Shown: piece after piece, positions 34,425-64,000 of the stretch
Position numbering within the stretch: position 1 is the stretch's first letter
How the letters are laid out: every line of letters starts with the position of its first letter
Assembly (NCBI RefSeq): GCF_040954645.1
Contig: NC_092807.1
Location: 52,233,481 to 52,297,480, forward strand
From: Diabrotica undecimpunctata
Lineage: Eukaryota > Arthropoda > Insecta > Coleoptera > Chrysomelidae
Reading direction: 5' to 3'
Length of the DNA stretch: 64,000 nt
The notes under the pieces: generated by a model
What the model saw: only the letters and a program-made list of their open reading frames with translations
The model's database searches: none
Told to the model about the DNA's origin: nothing
Made by a program: the position numbers and the translations under genes

Positions 34425-37400
34425 TTATAATGATAATTTGCTGTCTTTTAAAAATTTAATTAAGGAGTTGTAAATATCTACAGAGCCAAGTGATAATAAA
34501 TATAGTATATTCCAAGGAGCTGCTATTTTATATTTTAATAAATCATTTATAAGTTTGGATGAGTAGACTCTGTTTTTAGAACAACCAAAAAATATATGAT
34601 CTAAATCACTTTCCTCTCCACAATGCTCACATTTGTCATCATCCAACACCTTTATTTTAAATAAGTGCTTTGGATAACATGCGTGTCCGAAACGTATTCT
34701 AATAATGGAGGTTATGTGCCTCCTGGAAGCTCTAAAAGACTTGTACCAAGGAAATTTGGGAATATCTGGCTGAATTATCGAGTATCTATTTTGGTTCACA
34801 AAAGAGTATTCCTTCCACTGGTAGCTCCACTCTCGAAGTAATGTTAACTTGCAAGAAACAATACTGTCAGAAAGCGTTACTTTATGTAGAATATCAGTAT
34901 CGGTTAAAATGCTTTCTTTGGCTAATAAGTCGACATATTCATTATGTTCAAATCCTGCATGTGCTTTAATCCAGAGAAAATGTACATTGATTCCTTTAGT
35001 TAAAAGAGTTTGAATAATATGTTTAATTCTATAAATGTATGGGCAGTCTTGTAAGTTGGGTGGTCCATATATACCAATGGATTTTAACACTGCTAAGGAG
35101 TCCGACAAAATTAGAATATGGGCAAACTCAACTTCAGCTACATATAATAAAGCTTCATATATTGCAATAGCCTCTGCTGTATAAATCGAAGTTTCCGGGT
35201 TCAGTTTGAATTTCTTTTCTATATGTTCCGATGGTATAAAAAAAGCGCATCCGGTTCCATCTGGAGATTTAGACGCATCTGTATATAGAGCTATTGCCTC
35301 TTTGTATTTGCTTGTTATAGATAGAACAATATTTTTATTTAAATATATATTTTCACTATAATTTGGTACAATAATATCTGTATGTAAAAAGAAAGATGAG
35401 TAATTTTTGAATATGTAGTTCGTTCTATCTATATTTTTTAAAAGTGCTATATTTTGATTATACGCTTCGCAAAGTAAGGGAGATTTCTTTTTTTGCCAAT
35501 ATTTATTTGTCAGGTCATGGCAATTCAAAGTGACTATCTTTTCGTATAGAGATGAGTTCAGTAAGTATACTTTCATTAAATATTTTTTGGACAAAAACCT
35601 TCGTCTTATATTTAAAGGAGGTTCTAAAGCTTCCAAATATAAAGCTTGTACTGGAGTGGATCTCATGGCTCCTAAACATATTCGTAAGGCTAAGTTCTGT
35701 AAAACGTTGATTTTATTTAGTAGTACATTACTTGCTGATCCATACAAAACACTTCCGTAATCCAAAATAGATCGTATGTAAGCTTTGTAAAATAATAAAC
35801 TTACTTCAACATCCGATCCCCACCAAGTTTTATTAATTGATTTAAGAAAGTTTAATCCCTTATTGCATCTGTTCAACATGTCATCAATATGTAACTTCCA
35901 GGTCAATTTCTGGTCGAGTATCATTCCCAGATATTTAATTGTGTTTTTAAGGGAAAATTGGTGCCCACCTAAATTGATTGTACTAGCATTAGGAAAGTTA
36001 TGTCTGGTAAATAAACAAACTTGTGATTTACTGCAGGATAATTCGAAACCATTTTCTACAAACCATTTTTTATGGAATCCATACACTTCATTCAGGTTTT
36101 CAATGGATTGCTGATATTTTTTGTGTTCTGTATACAAACAGAAATCGTCAGCGTATTGTACAATATTGAATGCAATATTAGTAATAGTGATGTTGTGTAG
36201 ATCTGCTGTGTAAATGTTAAACAAAATAGGACTCAAAACGGAGCCCTGAGGTAATCCTTTGTTATTAAGTCTAGGTCCTATAAGAGTATGATTGTCTTTT
36301 AAATAAATTATCCTATTTGTGTACAAGTCCACAACGTTAGAAGCAAACTGCGCTGGAATATGAAAAAATTTAATCATTTTTTCTTGGAGAATTGTAAGAG
36401 ATACCGAGTCGTAAGCACCTTCGATGTCTAAAAATAAAGCAGGTACATAACTGTTCCTGGAAAAACTATTCTGAATGTCTACAACAAGTGTTGTTAAGGA
36501 ATCTAAGGTTCCATAACCTTTCTTAAAGCCATGTTGGTTAGCGGGTAAGAGACTTTGATCCCTTAGCCACCAATCTAACCTAATTTTAATCATCCATTCA
36601 AGAGTCTTCAATATACATGATAATAATGATATAGGTCGGTAAGCTTCAGCTAATTTAGGGTTTTTTCCCGGTTTGGGAATAGGGACAACTATAATACGCT
36701 TAAAATCGATTATGCCTTTACCCTCAAAAATTATCTGGTTAAATATATTTAAAAGTAATTCTTTTGCGTTATCTGGCAAATTTTGTATCATATAATATTT
36801 GACTGCATCATATCCTGGTGAGGTACTAACGCGATTATCAAGGGCAAACTCTAATTCAGCTCTTGAAAAGGTTGTTAAGAGAAAATGATTCTGATCAGAT
36901 GAGAGAGTTTCAGATGGTATTACATCTATCTGGTTATTTACGTAAGGTGGAGCTATTTTATCAAAAAAGTCGTCTACCCATGTGTTACTTAGAGGCAGTG
37001 GAAAGTTAACTTTTTTCCTGTTCATTTTCCTTGCTTGGTTCCAAATAAGACTAGATGGAGTTTGTTTATTTAATTTTGAACACCATTCAACCCAACTTTG
37101 TTTGGCCTTTAATTTTAGGAATTTTTTGACACGAGCATTCACTTCTTTGCATTTACAAAAATTTTCAAGAGAAGAATTTTTTTTGTAGTTTACTAATGCT
37201 TTCTTTCTTTCCGCAACAGATTCATCACATTCCGAATCCCACCACGGAGCGGGAGTACGTTTACATTTAAATGATTTATATTGACAAATTGATTGTTTAG
37301 AAGCTTCATTAATACAGTCAATAAGGAAATTATATTTTTCTTGCGTGTCTGAGTAGGCGTGAGGGTTGTTAGTTAATAAGGTTTCAATTAACTGAGAGTA

Positions 37401-38153
37401 TAATGACCAATTGGCTTTTTTAATGTTCCACTTACTGCTGGGATAAATGATATTCGCATCAGTTCCCAAGATATCGATTACAACCCTTATAACGAAGTGA
37501 TTTGATCCCAAAGTATCAGTATCTACAGACCACGAAATTTTATCAAAGAGAGAAGGTGAGCAAAATGTGACATCAATCATGGAATCTGTGTTTCCTGGTC
37601 TCGTTTGGCAAGTTGGTTGTCCATTATTCATTACCACATAATCTAGATTCTGAATTGTCTCCACAATTTGATGGCCTGTTTTATCATTTTTAGATGAGCC
37701 CCACAGAGAATTATGTGCGTTCATATCTCCTCCAATGATACAAGGGTGTTTTAATTGAGAAAATAACTTATCCCAATCTTCGGTGTTAGTTTTAGCTTTC
37801 GGACACCTATATACAGAGAGTAAAGTTAAATGACTTTTGTTATAGTTGATTTTAATACCACAAGCAAGCAATTCTTTATAATTTTTTTTAATTTTTATGT
37901 TTTCAAAGGGAATACCAGTTTTAATTAAAATAGCAACTCCGGAATAGCCGTCATCCCGATCTTCGCGTATTACATTATAACCTCTATATCTATAAACAAC
38001 ATCCCGTTTAAACCAAGTTTCACTTATTAAAGCTATATCAATATCTTCGGTTATTAAAAAGTTGAGAAGGCTGTTTTTGTTAGCAACAGCTGATCGAGCA
38101 TTCCATTGTATTATTTTGAGTTTAGCTTTGAAAGTAATTAGATTAGTTATTTT
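34425..38153 (-). CDS. I-type LINE ORF2: endonuclease-RT-RNase H
   Basis: Open for ~1242 codons. The endonuclease begins QWNARSAVANKNSLL and has ISETWF, IIGGDMNAHNSLWGS and GSNHFVI. RT: RPISLLSCILKTLEWM, NQHGFKKGYGTLDSL, FLDIEGAYDSVS, GLPQGSVLSPILFNIY, and catalytic QYADDFCLY. RNase H: ALYTDASKSPDGTG, AEAIAIYEALLYV, ILSDSLAVLKSI, KAHAGFEHNEYVDLLAKES. A C-terminal CEHCGEESDLDHIFFGC is a cysteine-histidine motif. RNase H in a non-LTR element places it in the I group. No ATG precedes the endonuclease: the frame opens right at the ORF1 stop, in the -1 frame, so initiation must be coupled to ORF1. Confidence 0.95.
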   Translation of the reverse strand, partial: KITNLITFKAKLKIIQWNARSAVANKNSLLNFLITEDIDIALISETWFKRDVVYRYRGYNVIREDRDDGYSGVAILIKTGIPFENIKIKKNYKELLACGIKINYNKSHLTLLSVYRCPKAKTNTEDWDKLFSQLKHPCIIGGDMNAHNSLWGSSKNDKTGHQIVETIQNLDYVVMNNGQPTCQTRPGNTDSMIDVTFCSPSLFDKISWSVDTDTLGSNHFVIRVVIDILGTDANIIYPSSKWNIKKANWSLYSQLIETLLTNNPHAYSDTQEKYNFLIDCINEASKQSICQYKSFKCKRTPAPWWDSECDESVAERKKALVNYKKNSSLENFCKCKEVNARVKKFLKLKAKQSWVEWCSKLNKQTPSSLIWNQARKMNRKKVNFPLPLSNTWVDDFFDKIAPPYVNNQIDVIPSETLSSDQNHFLLTTFSRAELEFALDNRVSTSPGYDAVKYYMIQNLPDNAKELLLNIFNQIIFEGKGIIDFKRIIVVPIPKPGKNPKLAEAYRPISLLSCILKTLEWMIKIRLDWWLRDQSLLPANQHGFKKGYGTLDSLTTLVVDIQNSFSRNSYVPALFLDIEGAYDSVSLTILQEKMIKFFHIPAQFASNVVDLYTNRIIYLKDNHTLIGPRLNNKGLPQGSVLSPILFNIYTADLHNITITNIAFNIVQYADDFCLYTEHKKYQQSIENLNEVYGFHKKWFVENGFELSCSKSQVCLFTRHNFPNASTINLGGHQFSLKNTIKYLGMILDQKLTWKLHIDDMLNRCNKGLNFLKSINKTWWGSDVEVSLLFYKAYIRSILDYGSVLYGSASNVLLNKINVLQNLALRICLGAMRSTPVQALYLEALEPPLNIRRRFLSKKYLMKVYLLNSSLYEKIVTLNCHDLTNKYWQKKKSPLLCEAYNQNIALLKNIDRTNYIFKNYSSFFLHTDIIVPNYSENIYLNKNIVLSITSKYKEAIALYTDASKSPDGTGCAFFIPSEHIEKKFKLNPETSIYTAEAIAIYEALLYVAEVEFAHILILSDSLAVLKSIGIYGPPNLQDCPYIYRIKHIIQTLLTKGINVHFLWIKAHAGFEHNEYVDLLAKESILTDTDILHKVTLSDSIVSCKLTLLREWSYQWKEYSFVNQNRYSIIQPDIPKFPWYKSFRASRRHITSIIRIRFGHACYPKHLFKIKVLDDDKCEHCGEESDLDHIFFGCSKNRVYSSKLINDLLKYKIAAPWNILYLLSLGSVDIYNSLIKFLKDSKLSL

Positions 38154-39511
38154 TTAAAAATATTATCTAAAACATTATTAATACCTTTGGCTAACATATT
38201 GATATCAAGTGATTTTGCCTGTTCTAAACAATTAATATTTTGAATAAAATCTGAGAAAAGAATTACTAAAGAATCTACTAATTTATTTTTCTCATTGTCC
38301 ACGGTTGAAAAACTTTCCTTGTTTAAGGGTGGTAAAGGTTGAGATGGTCCAAATCTGAAAGGGATGTGAGGAGATGTAGGATATTCGGAAGTTGGAGATG
38401 ATACTTTTCTTTTTTTATTTTCTCTATAATCAGTGCTTGATTTACTACAACTTGGTTGACTAATATTTTTGGTTTTCTGTAAATGAGGCCTCAATAGGTT
38501 GGAATAAGCAGGTTTATTAACTTCAGATGTGTTAGTTAATTTTGGAAACTCTCTATCTGAATTTGACAATATTTCAAATCTGTTATTACAAATAAGACCA
38601 GAAAAAGAAGAATCGTTTAAATTTTTGGCCTCCAAATATGAAATTTTATGTTCAATCATGATATTTTTTATTTTTTTTTGATGTTCGAAAAAAGGACAGT
38701 TTTTAGAGATCGATATATGCTTATCACTTTTACAGTGTATGCAATACATTTTTTTTTCATCACATGTATGTGTGTCAGTTTTTATTTCTCCACATCGTAT
38801 GCAGTATTCCTGTGTACCTTTACATTGTCTAGAAATGTGTCCAAATTTGAGACATTTATAACATTGAGTAACTTTACCTAACAATTTTTCGACTTGAAAA
38901 TATACATAACTAATTACAACATAGTTTGGTAAACAATTGCCTTCAAATGTAATTATAACATTACGTCTAGGTACATATTCTGTATTTCCATCTTTTTCTA
39001 TTTTCCTGTGCATTCTTTTAATATCAATAATTTGTGAACTAGAGGTCATATATCTTTTCAAATATTCAATGTTATATTTGGTATCGACATCACGTATCAG
39101 CCCTTTGATTTCTAAGAGTTGATTGGGAATGTACGCCTTTAAATTATCGTCTTTTAAATGACTATTATTGACTAATTTATTTGCATCCAAAATAGATTTG
39201 AGGATTACTTTAACACGGTTTCTTCCTATACTTTTAATTTCCTTAATATTGTCGATCTTTAATTTTTGATGTAAAATATCACCCACAACCATAGGGTGCA
39301 ATCGGCCTATATTCTGATCATTGGTCTTTTCAACATATACACAACAATTTTGAAAGTCGTAATTATTAGAATTAATATTAAAAAGTTTTACTTCCCTTGT
39401 AGCAGGAGAAATGGTGGTATTAATTCCTGTATCCATATTTTGTTCACTAACACTAACAACTTCAGCAGTATTTAGTTCGCGCATTGGCGTCTTATTGGTA
39501 TTCTCCCCCAT
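38147..39511 (-). CDS. I-type LINE ORF1: gag-like nucleic-acid-binding protein
   Basis: 454 residues from ATG 39511 (MGENTNKTPMRELNTAE). The middle region (DNIKEIKSIGRNRVKVILKS) looks like an RRM-type fold. A zinc-knuckle array follows: CYKCLKFGHISRQC is a perfect C-x2-C-x4-H-x4-C, then CIRCGEIKTDTHTC and CIHCKSDKHISISKNC. Such proteins coat LINE RNA in cytoplasmic particles and escort it to target DNA. The tail is proline/serine-rich (SPHIPFRFGPSQPLPPL). It ends TTT AAA AAA TAA, overlapping the ORF2 frame by a few bases. Confidence 0.93.
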   Translation of the reverse strand: MGENTNKTPMRELNTAEVVSVSEQNMDTGINTTISPATREVKLFNINSNNYDFQNCCVYVEKTNDQNIGRLHPMVVGDILHQKLKIDNIKEIKSIGRNRVKVILKSILDANKLVNNSHLKDDNLKAYIPNQLLEIKGLIRDVDTKYNIEYLKRYMTSSSQIIDIKRMHRKIEKDGNTEYVPRRNVIITFEGNCLPNYVVISYVYFQVEKLLGKVTQCYKCLKFGHISRQCKGTQEYCIRCGEIKTDTHTCDEKKMYCIHCKSDKHISISKNCPFFEHQKKIKNIMIEHKISYLEAKNLNDSSFSGLICNNRFEILSNSDREFPKLTNTSEVNKPAYSNLLRPHLQKTKNISQPSCSKSSTDYRENKKRKVSSPTSEYPTSPHIPFRFGPSQPLPPLNKESFSTVDNEKNKLVDSLVILFSDFIQNINCLEQAKSLDINMLAKGINNVLDNIFKK

Positions 39512-39866
39512 CAGGGGAGAATATTTTCACTTTTTATCACTATTTTACAATAATATGTAAATATTTTTAAACACCACGAAAATTAAATATTCTAATTGTC
39601 ACAAAAACTGGGAGCTTAATGACTTTATCGATAAACACGTCTACTCGGTATCAATGTATCGCTTTGACACTAAAATAAAGATGATTAAGAGTAATTTAAA
39701 AAGAAATGTTAATATTCACTAAAGCGTAAATCGCAGCAAAAAAATATCGCCAATGTTCACAAAATTTTCCGCTACTCTAGATAAATGATAGTGACATTTC
39801 TCCATATTTAACGAAGATGTAAATTGTTCAGAGTGCCGTGGTTTCGAAGTTATCGGGGCAAAATGA

Positions 39867-43675: not shown

Positions 43676-43919
43676 CACGTGTTACATTTTACGAGACCCT
43701 TCCATTAGCTGGCAGAAATTTATCAGAAACCGGTCGGACTATGACCCGGATTTACCTTCTAGTATAAATCAGACGGATTCTCCTGAATTCTAGGCCAGTT
43801 GTATTTTTATATATAATAACGGAGCTTTCATTGAAGGAGTCAGTTAATATCTGAAGACCCGCGCCCGCGATTTTAATTGTTACGTCAGACCCGCGCCAGC
43901 CTTCACCACAAAATCTGGA

Positions 43920-45912
43920 TTGTGGCAATTCAACGTTATGCCATTTGGACTCTGTAATGCTCCTGCGACATTTGAGAGGCTTATGGAAAATGTATTGAGA
44001 AGGTTATCTTGGAAAACATGCCTGGTTTATTTAGATGACATAATCGTCTTGGGGGAAACATTCGAAGATCATTTGAGGAATTTAGAAAACGTTTTTAATC
44101 GACTTAAAGCTGCCCAATTGATGCTAAACCCCAAGAAGTGCCAGCTATTTCAAGGTAGTAAAGTCAATTATCTGGGTCATATACTCAGTAAAGAAGGAGT
44201 GGCCGTGGATAAGGGAAAAATCGATTCCATTAAGGAATGGCCAAAACCAACTGACAAACACCAAGTGAGAAGTTTTCTTGGACTATGTACTTATTACCGA
44301 AGGTTTATTAAGAAGTTTGTAGATATCGCTAAGCCATTAACGCGACTTACGGAGGAAGCAAGAGATTACCGCTGCTGGGATACAGACTGCCAAAATGCCT
44401 TTGAGACCTTGAAAAAGCATTTAATAACAGCACCAATTTTAGGGTATACACTGCCAGAAGGAGAGTTCATCTTAGATACAGATGCAAGTAATGTGGGAAT
44501 TGGAGGAGTGCTGTCTCAGATTCAAGGAGGACAGGAACGAGTCCTCGGATATTTTAGTGAAGTTCTTTCAAAACCTGAGCGGAATTATTGTGTCACGAGA
44601 AGAGAACTTCTAGCAGTAGTGAAATCAGTAGAGCACTTTTATCAATACCTTTACGGAAGAAAGTTTTTAATCCGAACCGACCATGGCGCTCTTAAGTGGT
44701 TGATGCAGTTTAAGAATCCAGAGGGTCAGATAGCCAGGTGGATCAAACGACTCCAAGAATACGATTTTAAGATTGAGCACCGGGCCGGAGTTAGCCACAG
44801 AAACGCTGATTCTCTTTCCAGAAGACTATGCCCAGCAGAGTATTCCCACTGCTACAAAACGGAATCCAAGGAAGCAGCAGTGCTAAGAACAACGATGGTC
44901 AACGACTACTGGACGCCTACTAAGATCAGAGAAGAACAAGAAAGAGATCCAGTTATACAGAAAATTCGAAAATGGAAAGAGGAAAACCGTCGACCACCTT
45001 GGCAAGAAATATCAAACCTATGCTCAGTAGTTAAGACGTATTGGGCCCAGTGGGACTCATTTATCATGGAAGATGGCTTGCTCAAACGAGTCCTGAGGGC
45101 ATTTTGGTGTAAAGAAAACCCTTCAGCGAATTCGGGAACGGTTTTATTGGATGAACAGTTCCGACGACGTAAAAGACTGGTGTAAGAAATGTACTATTTG
45201 TGCTACGAGTAACGGGCTTTACCGAAAAAGGAGAGCTCCTATGAGACAATATAATGTTGGAAGCCCGTTTGAAAGAATAGCTTTGGATATCGCTGGGCCA
45301 TTCCCAGAAAGTGAAAATGGAGGCAAGTACATGTTGGTAGTAATGGATTACTTTACTAAGTGGGTCGAGATTTACGCACTTCCAGACCAGAAGGCCGCCA
45401 CCGTTGCAGATAAGTTGATCTAAGAATATATTAGCCGATTTGGGGTGCCTTTGGAGATACATAGTGACCAAGGCAGGAACTTCGAAAGCGATCTATTCCA
45501 AGGAATATGTGATAGACTAGGCATGAAGAAAACAAGAACTACAGCAGATCATCCGCAATCTGATGGTATGGTAGAACGAATGAATAGGACAGTTGGCAAA
45601 TATTTGACAAAGATGGTGTCCGATCATCAGCGAGACTGGGACCAGCCAGAGTCCTATTCGGACGCGAAATGCGACTACCTTGTGATCTAGAGTTTGGGTG
45701 TCGACCTGGAGAAGATGTAGCAGGTGAAGATTATGTGATCGAATTACGAAGAAGAATGGACGATGTACATGAGTTGGTCCGTTCCCACCTTCAGATCGCT
45801 AGCGACCGAATAAAGAAACGGTACGATACACAAGCCGAAAAGGGTTGCTTTAAGAAGAACGACAAAGTATGACTGTATAATCCCAAGCAACGAAAAGGTT
45901 GTTCTCCCAAAT
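43920..45912 (+). pseudogene. Gypsy pol: RT-RNase H-integrase, broken
   Basis: RT (QFNVMPFGLCNAPATFERLM, VYLDDIIVLGE), RNase H (LDTDASNVGIGGVLSQ, YCVTRRELLAVV, RTDHGALKWLMQF), then integrase (WCKKCTICATSNG, LDIAGPFPES, IHSDQGRNFESD, DHPQSDGMVERMNRT). Relative to copy 2: a ~100-bp deletion after KRVL near 45096 removes the zinc-binding start of integrase. A CAA-to-TAA stop lies at 45421, a deletion near 45645, and a TGA near 45870. So this copy cannot make a working enzyme. Confidence 0.92.
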
Positions 45913-46706
45913 TGCAGCAGTTTTGGGAAGGCCCCTACTTAATTATGGAGAAGATCAACGATGTCATCTACCGAATAAGCAAGATTCCGAGGGGAAAGCC
46001 GATGATAGTACACCATAACCGGCTGGCGTCTTTCGAAGGTGACCACGACGTAGACGAAGAAGTGGAAGTAAACCAAGTCCAAGATGTGTCTGACCTCACG
46101 TTTGAGGAATTCATGGGTGCATATGGAGGTACCGGTAAAGCAAGACATGGTGTTACCACTGAAGAAAAGCAAGATCTACTCGCGCTCCCCGATGACTACT
46201 CGCTGGCCCTTACCATCCCGGCCAGTATCAAAGACGCACCAGGGTTGGCATCCGTCTTTCAAAGGAAGTTTGGTCGAGTTGCAGAACTTCAATGCCAAGT
46301 GCCAGCTCCCGGTAAAACCTTGAAACTCCAAGATGCATCACGTTACCTTTTCTACCTGGTAACAAAAGACACTGCCCGTGACCAACCTACCTACCGAGAT
46401 GTATGGGAAGCCTTACTTCAATTGAGAGAGCACGTACTAGAGTCCGACGTGCAAAAGTTAGCCATGCCAAAGTTGGAGTGCCGCCAATTAGATTGGAGGG
46501 TTATCCGAAATATGGTGGAGGAGATCTTTAAAGACACCGAAGTCCAGGTGTTAGTCTGTTGCAATCCGCATAGTTACTGGTGCGGAGAGAAAACGTCCCT
46601 TGTCATTTTTATACAACTGGAAGTTGTAAAAGAGGGTCTAGTTGCCGATACCAGCATACTGTTCCAGTTCCAGTCCCGACAAGGTTCCAGGAGGAACCAT
46701 CTTTAA
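45912..46706 (+). CDS. Gypsy pol C-terminus with TARG1/OARD1-like macrodomain
   Basis: 264 codons still open, formerly continuous with integrase. Residues 1-45 are the integrase C-terminal domain (QFWEGPYLIMEKINDVIYRI). After an acidic linker, residues ~82-217 (46155-46562) look like a macrodomain of the ADP-ribose glycohydrolase TARG1/OARD1 type: EEKQDLLALPDDYSLALTI, APGLASVFQRKFGRVAEL, RYLFYLVTKDTARDQPTY, LREHV and LAMPKLEC...LDWRVIRNMVEEIF. These follow, in order, the family's D-F--P---SLAH-I, G-G-A--FK-KFG, Y-LVTK----KPTY, M-R-GCG-D---W--V and I-EVF blocks. The G-C-G-L-D segment reads ECRQLD, two residues shorter, so the catalytic loop may be damaged here. If active it would remove ADP-ribose from proteins. 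Confidence 0.75.
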   Translation: MQQFWEGPYLIMEKINDVIYRISKIPRGKPMIVHHNRLASFEGDHDVDEEVEVNQVQDVSDLTFEEFMGAYGGTGKARHGVTTEEKQDLLALPDDYSLALTIPASIKDAPGLASVFQRKFGRVAELQCQVPAPGKTLKLQDASRYLFYLVTKDTARDQPTYRDVWEALLQLREHVLESDVQKLAMPKLECRQLDWRVIRNMVEEIFKDTEVQVLVCCNPHSYWCGEKTSLVIFIQLEVVKEGLVADTSILFQFQSRQGSRRNHL

Positions 46707-46718
46707 AGAGGGGTGCAA

Positions 46719-47070
46719 TGCTACATTTTACGAGACCTCTCCATTAGCTGGCAGAAATTTATCAGAAACCGGTCGGACTAGGACCCGGATTTACCTTCTA
46801 GTATAAATCAGAGGGATTCTCCTGAATTCTAGGCCAGTTGTATTTTTATATATAATAACGAAGCTTTCATTGAAGGAGTCAGTTAATATCTGAAGACCCG
46901 CGCCCACGATTTTAATTGTTACGTTCGCCTATATAAATTATGTATTATTCGTTAAATAAATTGATATAAATGATCGTGCTTTTTAATGAATTAAGATAAG
47001 AACAATATAATAAATTAATAAAGACATTATAAATTAAATAAAGACATAGCAGTTAAATAAATTCACAACA
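46719..47070 (+). repeat. 3' LTR of Gypsy copy 1
   Basis: 352 bp, TG...CA, preceded by a purine-rich AAAGAGGGGTGCAA. The R-U5 half matches the LTR at 59015-59374; the U3 half does not. Confidence 0.88.
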
Positions 47071-47239
47071 CACGTAATTAGTTTAAATTTTTTTTGTTAA
47101 TAATATTTAAGGTAAGTTTAAATGTAAAATAGAAATATTTCTGATTAATGTATACTGCTTTAATAAAATTGTAAATATTTTATTATTAATTTGATATGAT
47201 AGAAATAAGAGAAAAAAGGGAAAAGGGAAAAGAATAATT

Positions 47240-54907: not shown

Positions 54908-54963
<56 letters not shown>
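54908..54963. repeat. (TA)n, left flank of Penelope insertion
   Basis: ~28 TA units between LINE sequence and the Penelope-like left arm. Confidence 0.95.
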
Positions 54964-56545
<1,582 letters not shown>

Positions 56546-59010: not shown

Positions 59011-59014
59011 GTAC

Positions 59015-59390: not shown

Positions 59391-59450
59391 AGATCGAACA
59401 TAAATTAGACTTATAATAATAATACAAGTGAATATTTATAAATTGTGAAA

Positions 59451-60827
59451 ATGACGACGATTTATGAGCTGACAGTGACTAATTTAAGAAGACATCTCGA
59501 AGACAGAGAATTAGCTTCTACCGGAAAAAAGGCTGAGTTAGTCCAACGACTAAAGAACGCTTTGCTAGAAGAAGGACTAGATCCAGAGACTTATATATTT
59601 GAAGATGCTGTTATCTCGTCGATTTCGAAATTAGAGAACAAAGTTTCTGACGATATTTCGAAGGTATCTTCTGATGTAGCCAAAGTTTCTGGTGACATCG
59701 CATCATTAGAGAACAAAGTTTCTGACGATATTTCGAAAGTTTCTTCTGATGTAGCCAAAGTTTCTGGTGATGTAGCCAAAGTTTCCGGCGACATCGCATC
59801 ATTGGAGAACAAAGTATCCGGCGACATCGCTTCTTTAGAAAGCAAAGTTTCTAACGAGATTTCTTCTCTGGAAAGCAAAGTTTCTGCTAACATCTCTAAA
59901 GTCACTTCAGAGATATCTGCTCTTGACGATAGAGTGTCTTCGTTAAAAAACCAAGTTGCTGCCGATATGTTGGCCTTCGAAGAAAAGATTAAAGAGATGG
60001 AAAGGAAGATGGAGGAAACAGGGACAGCAGAGAGAGGAAACAATCCAATTACAGTGGAGACAAAAGAAGAAGAGACGAAATGTAAGTTGGAAACACGGCC
60101 GAAATTTGAAGGAAGTGGAGGTTCTGTCCATGTGAAAGTCCCAACTTTCGATGGAAAATCGTCATGGAACAACTACATGAAACAGTTCGAATCAGCCGCA
60201 AGAGCAAATGGATGGTCTGAAAAAGAAAAGGCGGTAAACCTGACTATCGCTCTTCGAGGAGATGCCTTAGATGTGCTTCAGACCATAGCCGTAGAGGAGA
60301 CCGATGATTTCGAACAACTGAAGAAGAGGTTAAATATGCGATATGGCCACGAACATTTGGAGCATGTATATCAGTCACAGCTTAAAAATCGTAGACAGAA
60401 GAAAGATGAGGCTCTTCAAGAATATGAGGTAGATATTGCCAGATTAGTACGATATGCTTATCCAACAGCTCCAGAAGACATGATGGAAAAATTGGCTGTT
60501 CAAACGTTTATTGATGGTCTTCGTGATCATGAAATGCAGAGAACACTGCGATTAGCTCGTCACAAGACGCTGGTTGATGTCTTATCCGCCGCCCTCGAAT
60601 ACGAGTCAGCTACGCAGGCCTCTGGCGGGTACAGTAAAGTTAGGACTGTAAAAGAGGAAGGAGATGAAGATAAACTTGACCAGCTCGTTAATATGATGAA
60701 AAGCATGACATACAAGAAAACGAAGACCATCAGATGCTGGAATTGTGGCGAAATAGGACACGTACGAAGCTCCTGTAAGCACCCTAGGTACGACGCAAAT
60801 CAAGAAACTCACCATCAGGAAAACTAG
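59451..60827 (+). CDS. Gypsy gag with N-terminal SAP domain
   Basis: 458 residues from ATG 59451 (MTTIYELTVTNLRRHLEDRE). Residues ~6-42 match the SAP DNA-binding motif (L-V--LR--L--R-L---GKK-EL--RL). A long coiled coil follows, built from repeats of KVSDDISKVSSDVAKVSGDI and shorter derivatives (~residues 60-185). Then the capsid region (VPTFDGKSSWNNYMKQFESA, EYEVDIARLVRYAYP, MMEKLAVQTFIDGL) and one zinc knuckle CWNCGEIGHVRSSC. It forms the cytoplasmic particle and packages element RNA; SAP may add chromatin binding. It ends GAA AAC TAG, with pol in the -1 frame. Confidence 0.93.
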   Translation: MTTIYELTVTNLRRHLEDRELASTGKKAELVQRLKNALLEEGLDPETYIFEDAVISSISKLENKVSDDISKVSSDVAKVSGDIASLENKVSDDISKVSSDVAKVSGDVAKVSGDIASLENKVSGDIASLESKVSNEISSLESKVSANISKVTSEISALDDRVSSLKNQVAADMLAFEEKIKEMERKMEETGTAERGNNPITVETKEEETKCKLETRPKFEGSGGSVHVKVPTFDGKSSWNNYMKQFESAARANGWSEKEKAVNLTIALRGDALDVLQTIAVEETDDFEQLKKRLNMRYGHEHLEHVYQSQLKNRRQKKDEALQEYEVDIARLVRYAYPTAPEDMMEKLAVQTFIDGLRDHEMQRTLRLARHKTLVDVLSAALEYESATQASGGYSKVRTVKEEGDEDKLDQLVNMMKSMTYKKTKTIRCWNCGEIGHVRSSCKHPRYDANQETHHQEN

Positions 60828-63800
60828 AACGGGTCAGCCTTAGGGGGGCAGCTTCGACCCAGAACTTTTCCAAAGACCCTCTCATACTAATAGCTTCTTT
60901 GAAATGTCGTGAAGATAGTGTATATGTAGATGGAGACATAAATGGTAAAAAGCATACGTTGTTGGTGGATACCGGAGCGACCAGAACCATTATACGCCCG
61001 ACAGTTATAAACAGCCGAAAGAAACTGTTACCAACGAGGTTGCGACTTCGGACCGCTACAGGTGAAAATGCTAACATTCATGGAGAAATCCAGGTACAAT
61101 TGGGAATTGGAGCAGAAAAGTTCGTCCATACTGTTATAGTTGCTGACATCGAAGAGGATGTTATATTAGGAATGGACGTAATGAATATGCATGGATTCCA
61201 ATTGGATTTTAAGAATAAGGTAATCAAAGTTGGCAACGAAGAGGTATTTCTCCATCCACATAATGACAACACTGTGCAAGCAGCCATTACAGAAGATACA
61301 GTCGTGCCTGCGAGAAGCGAAACGATCATAGTAGCGCGACTACAGGGAATTGTAGACGAAGGGACACCTGTTATGATGGAGCCTTGGAACCACGACGATG
61401 AGGTTGGCCGTGGAATCATAATTGGAAAGGAATTGGTGACTTCGGCCAAAGAAATTCCTGTGAGACTTATCAATGTCAACGACTACCCAGTGACCATCAA
61501 GAAAGAGACAAAGGTAGGAACTTGTGTACCTGTGACATCCATAATCCGTCAGGCGACAACATCTGATAATTCCAACGACAAATTCGACCAAATGGTTGCA
61601 GTTGCAGGACAGTCTCTAAATCAGATGGAGAAAAGGAAATTAAGGGAATTTCTCCGGCAGTATCGTGATATTTTCGTACCGAAAGGAGGAAAGACGGGAA
61701 GAACTACCGTTGTTAAGCATAAAATTGATACTGGTAATGCTAAGCCAATTCGTCAAACAGCTCGACGATTACCACAGGCGAAGAGAGAGGAAGCTGAAAC
61801 GATTGTTCAGGAAATGAAGAAAGACGGGGTGATAGAACCTTCTACGAGCCCATGGGTCTCTCCGGTGGTCCTGGTTAAGAAGAAAGACGGAACGACGAGG
61901 TTCTGTGTGGATTACCGTTTGCTGAACAACGTTACCAAGAAAGATAGTTATCCTCTGCCTCGGATCGATGACACATTGGACACATTGGCTGGAAGTAAAT
62001 TGTTTTCTACTTTGGATTTGAAGTCTGGATACTGGCAGGTAGAAATGGACCCAGTAGATAAAGAAAAGACAGCCTTCACCACAGGATCTGGATTGTGGCA
62101 ATTCAACGTTATGCCATTTGGACTTTGTAATGCTCCTGCGACATTTGAGAGGCTTATGGAAAATGTGTTGAGAGGGTTATCTTGGAAAACATGCCTGGTT
62201 TATTTAGATGACATAATCGTCTTGGGGGAGACATTCGAAGATCATTTGAGGAATTTAGAAAACGTTTTTAATCGACTTAAAGCTGCCCAATTGATGCTAA
62301 ACCCCAAGAAGTGCCAGCTATTTCAAGGTAAAGTCAATTATCTGGGTCATATAGTCAGTAAAGAAGGAGTGGCCGTGGATAAGGGAAAAATCGATTCCAT
62401 TAAGGAATGGCCAAAACCAACTGACAAACATCAAGTGAGAAGTTTTCTTGGACTATGTACTTACTACCGGAGGTTTATTAAGAAGTTTGCAGATATCGCT
62501 AAGCCATTAACGCGACTTACGGAGGAAGCAAGAGATTACCGCTGGGATACAGACTGCCAAAATGCCTTTGAGACCTTGAAAAAGCATTTAATAACAGCAC
62601 CAATTTTAGGGTATCCACTGCCAGAAGGAGAGTTCATCTTAGATACAGATGCAAGTAATGTGGGAATTGGAGGAGTGCTGTCTCAGATTCAAGGAGGACA
62701 GGAACGAGTCCTCGGATATTTTAGTAAAGTTCTTTCAAAACCTGAGCGGAATTATTGCGTCACGAGAAGAGAACTTCTGGCAGTAGTGAAATCAGTAGAG
62801 CACTTCTATCAATACCTCTATGGAAGGAAGTTTTTAATCCGAACCGACCATGCCGCCCTTAAGTGGTTGATGCAGTTTAAGAATCCAGAGGGTCAGATAG
62901 CCAGGTGGATCGAACGACTCCAAGAATACGATTTTAAGATTGAGCACCGAGCCGGAGTTAGCCACAGAAACGCTGATTCTCTTTCCAGACGGCCATGCCC
63001 AGCAGAGTGTCCCCACTGCAACAAAACGGAATCCAAGGAAGCAGCAGTGCTAAGAACGACGATTGTCAACGACGACTGGACGCCTACTAAGATAAGGGAA
63101 GAACAAGAGAGAGATCCAGTTATAGAGAAAATCCGAAAATGGAAAGAGGAAAACCGTCGACCACCTTGGCAGGAAATATCAAACCTATGCTCAGTAGTTA
63201 AGACGTATTGGGCCCAGTGGGACTCATTTATCATCGAAGATGGCTTGCTCAAACGAGTCCTGGAAAATGATGACGGTTCAGAGAAAAGAAGACAGTTGGT
63301 GATTCCAAAGAGCAGAATAGCCGAAGTACTTCGTCAGTTACACGACAGTCCATCGGGAGGACATTTTGGTGTAAGGAAAACCCTTCAGCGAATTCGGGAA
63401 CGGTTTTATTGGATGAACAGTTCCGACGACGTAAAAGACTGGTGTAAGAAATGTACTATTTGTGCTACGAGTAACGGGCCTCACCGGAAAAGGAGAGCTC
63501 CTATGAGACAATATAATGTTGGAAGCCCGTTTGAAAGAATAGCTTTGGACATTGCAGGGCCATTTCCAGAAAGTGAAAATGGGGGCAAGTACATGTTGGT
63601 AGTAATGGATTACTTCACTAAGTGGGTCGAGATTTACGCACTTCCAGACCAGAAGGCCGCCACCGTTGCAGATAAGTTGATCCAAGAATATATCAGCCGA
63701 TTTGGAGTGCCTTTGGAGATCCATAGTGACCAAGGCAGGAACTTCGAAAGTGATCTATTCCAAGGAATATGTGATAGACTAGGCATGAAGAAAACAAGAA

Positions 63801-64000
63801 CTACAGCATATCATCCGCAATCTGATGGTATGGTAGAACGGATGAATAGGACAGTTGGCAAATATTTGACAAAGATGGTGTCCGATCATCAGCGAGACTG
63901 GGACCAATACCTTCCGTTCTTCACAATGGCCTACAGATCTGCTGTTAACGAATCAACAGGCCAGACACCAGCGAAAGTCCTATTCGGACGCGAAATGCGA
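60827..64000 (+). CDS. Gypsy pol: protease-RT-RNase H-integrase, runs off the window
   Basis: Open through at least 1057 codons in the -1 frame relative to gag. Protease: LLVDTGATRTII (60960) and VILGMDVMNMHGF. RT: FCVDYRLLNNVTKKDSYPLP, FSTLDLKSGYWQV, VMPFGLCNAPATF, catalytic VYLDDIIVLG. RNase H: LDTDASNVGIGGVLSQ, YCVTRRELLAVV, RTDHAALKWLMQF. Integrase: HDSPSGGHFGVRKTL...WCKKCTICA (zinc-binding), LDIAGPFPES, IHSDQGRNFESD, HPQSDGMVERMNRT (DDE), TMAYRSAVNESTGQTPAKVLF. No stop or frameshift recognised, unlike copy 1. The integrase C-terminus and predicted macrodomain are outside the window. Confidence 0.93.

Follow-up and report, generated by a model that had tools for sequence, protein, structure and literature searches.

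A Ty3/Gypsy retrotransposon family of the beetle Diabrotica undecimpunctata almost certainly carries a macrodomain of the TARG1/OARD1 type behind the integrase of its Pol polyprotein. The domain was recognized in the window analyzed here, a stretch of 64,000 nucleotides (C5:52233481–52297480 of the 1.74 Gb genome) that holds two copies of the element, copy 1 and copy 2. We call this macrodomain-Gypsy family, comprising both window copies and their kin, family A. The macrodomain is very probably maintained by selection for a function, even though family A lacks one residue of the catalytic pair on which TARG1 depends.

The open frame at 45873–46706 of copy 1 matches PF22938, the integrase p58 C-terminal domain (Pfam, E-value 1.8e-13), and behind this domain residues 75–215 of the 264-residue piece match human TARG1 (C6orf130) at 4.9e-22. 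A single frame thus runs from the integrase C-terminal domain into the macrodomain, as the first-pass annotation of this DNA, made from the letters alone, had proposed. The macrodomain is predicted with confidence by AlphaFold2 (mean predicted local distance difference test score, pLDDT, 91; predicted template modelling score 0.87), and the top eight Foldseek matches of the model are all TARG1 entries. A search with the Pfam Macro model gave a divided answer: it is blank on copy 1 but, of the 26 rows in alignment A1, it picks up 19 with E-values up to 0.1, the best being 1e-6. Given a clear fold and a clear match to TARG1, we do not weigh the miss in copy 1 against the fold. By sequence homology and by an ALC1-like macro fold nearest to that of TARG1, the domain belongs to the TARG1/OARD1 family by descent. 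The grounds named beforehand for giving up this identification were the lack of a macro-fold match, absence from intact copies, or neutral decay across the family; since sequence, fold, presence throughout a clade and purifying selection all support a macrodomain fused behind the integrase, the identification stands. The parts of copy 1 concerned are as follows.

45873..46706, plus strand: open segment with the integrase C-terminal domain (PF22938 at residues 20–52) and the macrodomain
46119..46562, plus strand: TARG1/OARD1-like macrodomain (AYGGTGK...VLVCC), from sequence and fold matches
46365..46367, plus strand: Lys codon aligned to TARG1 Lys84 (in YLVTK)
46467..46496, plus strand: shortened loop PKLEC--RQLDW, against PRIGCGLDRLQW in TARG1; the residue aligned to Asp125 is absent

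Copy 2 is a recent insertion whose macrodomain belongs to an uninterrupted Pol frame. Its 3′ end lies in the stretch directly beyond the window (L009), into which Pol can be read, open all through the macrodomain and a CCCH zinc finger behind it. The element has the Pol order protease, reverse transcriptase (RT), RNase H, integrase, a Gag with a CCHC knuckle, long terminal repeats (LTRs) with TG...CA ends, and 4-bp target-site duplications (GTAC in copy 2, CACG in copy 1), all as expected of Ty3/Gypsy.

59011..59014, unstranded: target-site duplication GTAC of copy 2, with its partner after the 3′ LTR in L009
59015..59374, plus strand: 5′ LTR of copy 2, identical at 360/360 positions to the 3′ LTR at L009 1146–1505
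59442..60827, plus strand: Gag of copy 2, with SAP domain, coiled-coil-like repeats, Retrotrans_gag and CCHC knuckle
60788..64000, plus strand: Pol open frame of copy 2 (protease, RT, RNase H, integrase), continuing beyond the window in L009

The SAP domain at the N terminus of this Gag (E-value 9.7e-7) is followed by repeated segments and then by the capsid part, and also occurs in a Gonioctena protein, P0034. A SAP domain in this position appears unusual.

In TARG1, a lysine attacks the ribose and the acidic residue at position 125 resolves the intermediate; mutating residue 125 leaves a covalent intermediate in vitro (excerpt of PMC7050489, which prints Glu125). Excerpts of PMC9411070 and PMC5087735 also give these roles to Lys84 and Asp125. 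Family A retains only the first part of this dyad. The lysine aligned to Lys84 is kept in all 54 distinct copies, both window copies included, and two loop residues together with the Asp aligned to Asp125 are missing from all 54. Judged as a TARG1-type hydrolase, family A therefore has Lys84 (54/54) and lacks Asp125 within GCGLD (0/54). The two-residue gap noted in the first-pass annotation is real in copy 1 but is no defect of that copy, and the intact GCGLD loop anticipated for copy 2 past the window edge does not exist: copy 2 reads PKLEC-RQLDW, as copy 1 does. The same short loop is present in P0003, in P0124 and P0126 of Diabrotica virgifera, and in P0125; between P0124 and copy 2 identity is ∼90%. 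The fucata and virgifera groups separated ∼30 million years ago (excerpt of PMC8982398), so the loop loss, being shared by the D. virgifera proteins, predates that split if inheritance was vertical. The state of family A would resemble that of the TARG1 residue-125 mutant, or of DarG, which has the lysine alone and is active on DNA. P0126, which covers the linker between integrase and macrodomain of the element, is named “ADP-ribose glycohydrolase OARD1-like” in a public gene set; annotators should be warned that an apparent element fragment carries this name.

The relatives of family A mostly differ from it in this respect. Both dyad residues are kept in 19 of the 22 complete element rows, the exceptions being P0003, P0010 and P0024; left out of the residue table were P0005, nearly a duplicate of P0004, the truncated P0009 and P0018, and also P0123 and P0126. 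The description of the domain as ADP-ribose-hydrolysing is accordingly plausible for the 19 but draws no support from the TARG1 dyad in family A. The change in family A also extends beyond the dyad. In its core, the fraction of residues matching any of three host domains is 0.56, against 0.44–0.60 in the relatives, and this fraction falls to 0.27 and 0.38 in two loops, which by comparison with TARG1 we take to form the pocket. A description of the phosphate loop (excerpt of PMC5087735) was also used for this assignment. P0010 is the sister of family A in the macrodomain tree (support 96/93) and lies elsewhere within the clade on the integrase tree; its loop 1 is equally diverged and both its dyad residues are lost. 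On the sequence evidence, the pocket is remodelled in one lineage with the fold retained.

The same genome contains a second macrodomain-Gypsy family, B, 55–57% identical to the domain of P0004. It was found by genome searches with host-like and P0004-like queries, from which the best 150 of 5597 candidates were scored. Here the catalytic lysine is replaced by Arg in 46 of 47 distinct copies, so that the Lys84 of a TARG1-type hydrolase is lacking, and the position aligned to Asp125 holds Asp in 42 copies and Glu in 5. Since A loses the Asp and B the Lys, each family is without one, different, residue of the dyad. The family B loci are L030–L040, L049, L050, L052–L055, L058–L060, L062–L068 and L089–L108; their loop is altered to GHALD, and a CCCH finger follows in the copies inspected. 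As to copy number, the best of 9132 first-look candidates in the genome gave at least 145 matches, and at least 99 of the 145 lie in an open frame no shorter than 1300 codons. Copies of both families were drawn from best-scoring lists and are biased towards intact ones; six overlapping loci (L012, L013, L019, L057, L061 and L056) were dropped from the counts.

Alongside these families stands a host OARD1-like gene (C3:100934197–100934637) with the lysine present and a GCGLDRLDW loop. Its locus, L029/L056 (C3:100929500–100939400), has an open frame of 760 codons, in which the TARG1-like domain is preceded by a long N-terminal region and followed by additional C-terminal sequence. The pattern GCGLDxLxW has one match in the 1.74 Gb genome, in this gene, as against one for the reversed control pattern; the search is blind to other spellings such as ACGLD and, because the DNA pattern search skips very common words, a single match is no proof of rarity. 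The genome may hold further macrodomain families, among them some whose dyad is intact and whose loop is spelled otherwise.

Selection on the domain was assessed from nonsynonymous (N) and synonymous (S) variants, separating those shared by two or more copies, which are older than single insertions, from singletons, seen once. The test assumes a transition weight of 4 and independent variants, and counts only copies of modal length (48 of 54 in A, 42 of 47 in B). Relative to the neutral expectation, the N/S ratio of shared variants is 0.23 for family A (9 N, 17 S; p = 2.6e-4) and 0.40 for family B (22 N, 23 S; p = 0.0019). Singletons lie near neutrality, at 0.81 (A) and 0.74 (B), neither significant, and in family A the two classes of variant differ (p = 0.011). 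Integrase sequence served for comparison: in the C-terminal part from family B (20 copies), a positive control, shared variants stand at 0.22 and singletons at 0.68, and in a short control stretch from family A (38 codons, 26 copies) shared variants stand at 0.18. Copy 2 and P0004 share 53% identity in the macrodomain, against 31% in the linker that precedes it and 63% in the integrase part. With shared variants constrained and the macrodomain more conserved than its linker, the domain is maintained even where the dyad is broken. The survey of relatives suggested at the outset found the domain across a clade.

That clade was delimited with the integrase region of copy 2 as query, which found 1618 proteins; the counts rest on the 120 listed, among which 25 have the macrodomain. 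In six relatives scanned with Pfam it lies directly behind Integrase_p58_C. In an integrase tree of 121 rows, all 26 macrodomain-bearing rows (copy 2 counted) fall within one clade of 30, with a support of 94 in the SH-like approximate likelihood ratio test. This distribution would fit one capture plus a few losses. Organisms named among the 25 are Callosobruchus maculatus (2), Erysiphe pulchra (2) and Klebsiella pneumoniae (1), of which the Erysiphe and Klebsiella rows are probably contaminating insect DNA; two further protein searches brought in one more Callosobruchus protein, together with pieces from Diabrotica.

The macrodomain tree has 29 rows. One branch (100/99) separates its 26 element rows from the host rows, namely the OARD1-like gene of this genome, a host protein of Tenebrio and human TARG1; the OARD1-like gene adjoins the elements with weaker support (93/78). 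Host sampling here is thin, at three rows, because no host TARG1 came out of the short-query homolog search, which gave just three pieces of elements. The macrodomain was probably captured once from an insect host gene, perhaps that of a beetle. A scan of viral contigs with the P0004-type domain gave three pattern matches, none of them confirmed.

Of the 22 rows long enough to show it, 15 have a CCCH finger behind the macrodomain, as judged by eye; P0009, P0018 and P0025 end too early and were left out. This part has a profile match to CPSF4 (E-value 7.9e-5). In a model of macrodomain plus CCCH of the P0004 type, the macrodomain is good and the CCCH part has a pLDDT below 50, so no claim is made for its fold beyond the profile match. 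Many copies (L003–L008, L014, L016–L020) change frame near the CCCH segment by differing lesions, yet read on. Recurrent frame shifts between macrodomain and CCCH were considered as a feature and then discounted, since P0001, the query of that search, has its own end in the shifted frame and so favors such copies.

What the domain does probably differs within the clade. Most members, having kept the dyad, would encode an ADP-ribose-binding hydrolase. In family A the lysine stays, the Asp and both pocket loops are changed and the core is conserved, and for these reasons the integrase tail most likely carries a binding module, altered or without hydrolysing activity, that began as a captured hydrolase, a reading to which we give about an even chance. 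Pol would then end in a binding module tied to integrase, at the site where chromoviruses have their chromodomain. In families A and B alike, selection would be keeping a binding role, with integrase tethering its likeliest use: the module may hold integrase to a chromatin partner, possibly an ADP-ribosylated one, and the CCCH finger may add a nucleic-acid contact. For family A, we put binding or tethering as the main role at slightly short of even.

Several observations weigh against this reading. DarG keeps the lysine alone and SCO6735 neither residue, and both are active hydrolases (excerpts of PMC7050489 and PMC9411070), so loss of the Asp is no proof of lost chemistry; conversely, the pocket has diverged to a degree at which ADP-ribose binding could perhaps be wholly lost. 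The 54 family A copies are close kin, and their agreement in lysine and loop does not amount to 54 independent observations. Four of the 30 clade rows lack the macrodomain (P0013, P0023, P0030 and P0034), so the domain is not strictly required; by eye P0023 looks like a secondary deletion, and P0034, at 660 residues, may be incomplete. The CCCH finger is missing from seven of 22 rows (P0008, P0012, P0015, P0016, P0019, P0027 and P0029). In family B, shared variants and singletons do not differ significantly (p = 0.13). Nor are singletons a clean neutral yardstick, since those of family A stood at 0.45 in an earlier run with fewer copies (32 N, 29 S) and at 0.14 in the integrase control stretch (3 N, 8 S; 11 changes).

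The alternative that survives best, though we think it doubtful, is that the macrodomain strips off the ADP-ribose that PARPs of the host attach at integration nicks, to proteins of the element or to the ends of complementary DNA or RNA, aiding integration or evading defense. The 19 dyad-keeping domains among the matches listed speak for such an eraser, as does the activity of TARG1 itself, which acts on ADP-ribosylated Glu and Asp and on ADP-ribose-phosphate at nucleic-acid ends and interacts with PARP1 (excerpt of PMC7050489). In this genome, however, both families have lost a dyad residue (the Asp in 54 of 54 copies of A, the Lys in 46 of 47 of B), TARG1 K84A and DarG K80A are described as inactive (excerpt of PMC9411070), and GCGLDxLxW, within the limits of that pattern, occurs in the host gene only. 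Somewhat less probable again is that the domain represents a new class of tail for targeting integrase: a host eraser, turned into a reader through the loss of differing dyad residues in separate families, would guide the pre-integration complex to DNA breaks or to chromatin marked by PARPs. Family A, with its lysine but without the Asp, might alternatively do so as a covalent ADP-ribose trap.

We consider it improbable that the fold is kept irrespective of ADP-ribose, as a structural or RNA-handling unit that serves packaging or Pol stability together with the CCCH finger. Diverged pocket loops around a conserved core, and the CPSF4 match, would suit such a unit, but a pure scaffold would not need the lysine that family A has kept, as have its kin P0003, P0124 and P0125, and a third of members (7/22) have no CCCH finger. 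Chemistry through the lysine alone, as in DarG, perhaps on ADP-ribosylated DNA, is a little less probable still for family A, in which most of loop 1 is lost as well, along with two residues of the GCGLD loop; family B, with Arg in this place, could not use it. That the domain is a once-useful capture now drifting is already disfavored and very unlikely: eroded catalytic residues in two families and the four domain-less clade rows would fit, but the conserved core, the constraint on shared variants, the conservation of macrodomain over linker and the many matches within long open frames tell against it.

The binding module proposed for family A has partial counterparts in known systems. Human TARG1 is nearest in the PDB by sequence and fold, and its dyad is shared as described, but the element domain is fused behind integrase and has lost Asp125 and two loop residues in family A and exchanged Lys84 for Arg in family B. 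The beetle OARD1-like host proteins (Tenebrio P0122, of 950 residues, and the genome's own gene) have a TARG1-like domain that adjoins the elements in the macrodomain tree, which has only three host rows, and in which GCGLD and the lysine are intact; they differ from the elements in having further regions and no pol. Chromoviruses likewise bear an extra fold at the integrase C terminus (excerpt of PMC3605345), but there it is a chromodomain, for which Pfam gave no match in the tail of copy 1 (E-values up to 10) or in six relatives (up to 0.1). Fish epsilon-like endogenous retroviruses with macro-domain open reading frames (Basta et al., 2009, via an excerpt of PMC4977317) are also retroelements with an acquired macro domain; compared by description rather than sequence, they differ in being retroviruses with the domain as an additional frame, whereas here it is fused to Pol of a Ty3/Gypsy element. 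The bacterial antitoxin DarG, of the same ALC1-like class and with Lys but no Asp, is the next structural match after TARG1, but is only 19–24% (5m31, 5m3i, 5m3e) or 15% (7omu) identical and belongs to a toxin-antitoxin context. Captured domains thus have precedents in chromodomain Gypsy elements and fish retroviruses, and no macrodomain in a Gypsy element was found among the titles and abstract openings listed from the open-licence literature, a search outside which most subscription papers and Repbase lie.

The remainder of copy 1 shows a genuine insertion that is dead and internally deleted; upstream of 45873 there are stops and frame changes.

43676..43679, unstranded: target-site duplication CACG on the 5′ side of copy 1; the identical four bases follow the 3′ LTR
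43680..43885, plus strand: 5′ LTR remnant, 206 bp, fused to mid-RT by the internal deletion; 97% identical to 46719–46924
43848..45185, plus strand: open segment with the C-terminal part of RT and RNase H (RVT_1, RT_RNaseH)
46601..46657, plus strand: segment encoding the CCCH zinc finger, in a different frame from the macrodomain here; copy 2 and P0124 have it in frame
46705..46713, plus strand: purine run directly 5′ of the 3′ LTR, from its sequence a probable polypurine tract
46719..47070, plus strand: 3′ LTR, with TG...CA ends and then CACG
47071..47074, unstranded: target-site duplication CACG on the 3′ side of copy 1

LRRGQC, a recurrent C-terminal motif of Pol in the relatives, resembles a translated polypurine tract, with Pol reaching the edge of the 3′ LTR. 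Elsewhere in the window, an inverted repeat at 54960–56417 has 422-nt arms, 100% complementary, on either side of 265 nt; further arms of 184 nt at 99% extend the repeat, which looks like a recent fold-back element or insertion. An element resembling a long interspersed nuclear element occupies 34425–39526 on the minus strand; of its two long open frames, that of 459 residues has CCHC-like motifs and that of 1242 residues resembles, by eye, endonuclease, RT and RNase H.

The fusion connects LTR-retrotransposon integration with ADP-ribose signaling, a mark of broken and remodelled chromatin. Its members form a natural series of dyad-intact relatives, family A with Lys but no Asp, and family B, in which the acidic residue is kept and Arg replaces Lys; A and B are both multicopy in one genome, alongside a host gene whose loop is intact. 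This series makes it testable whether, for retroelements, ADP-ribose is a landing signal or a thing to erase.

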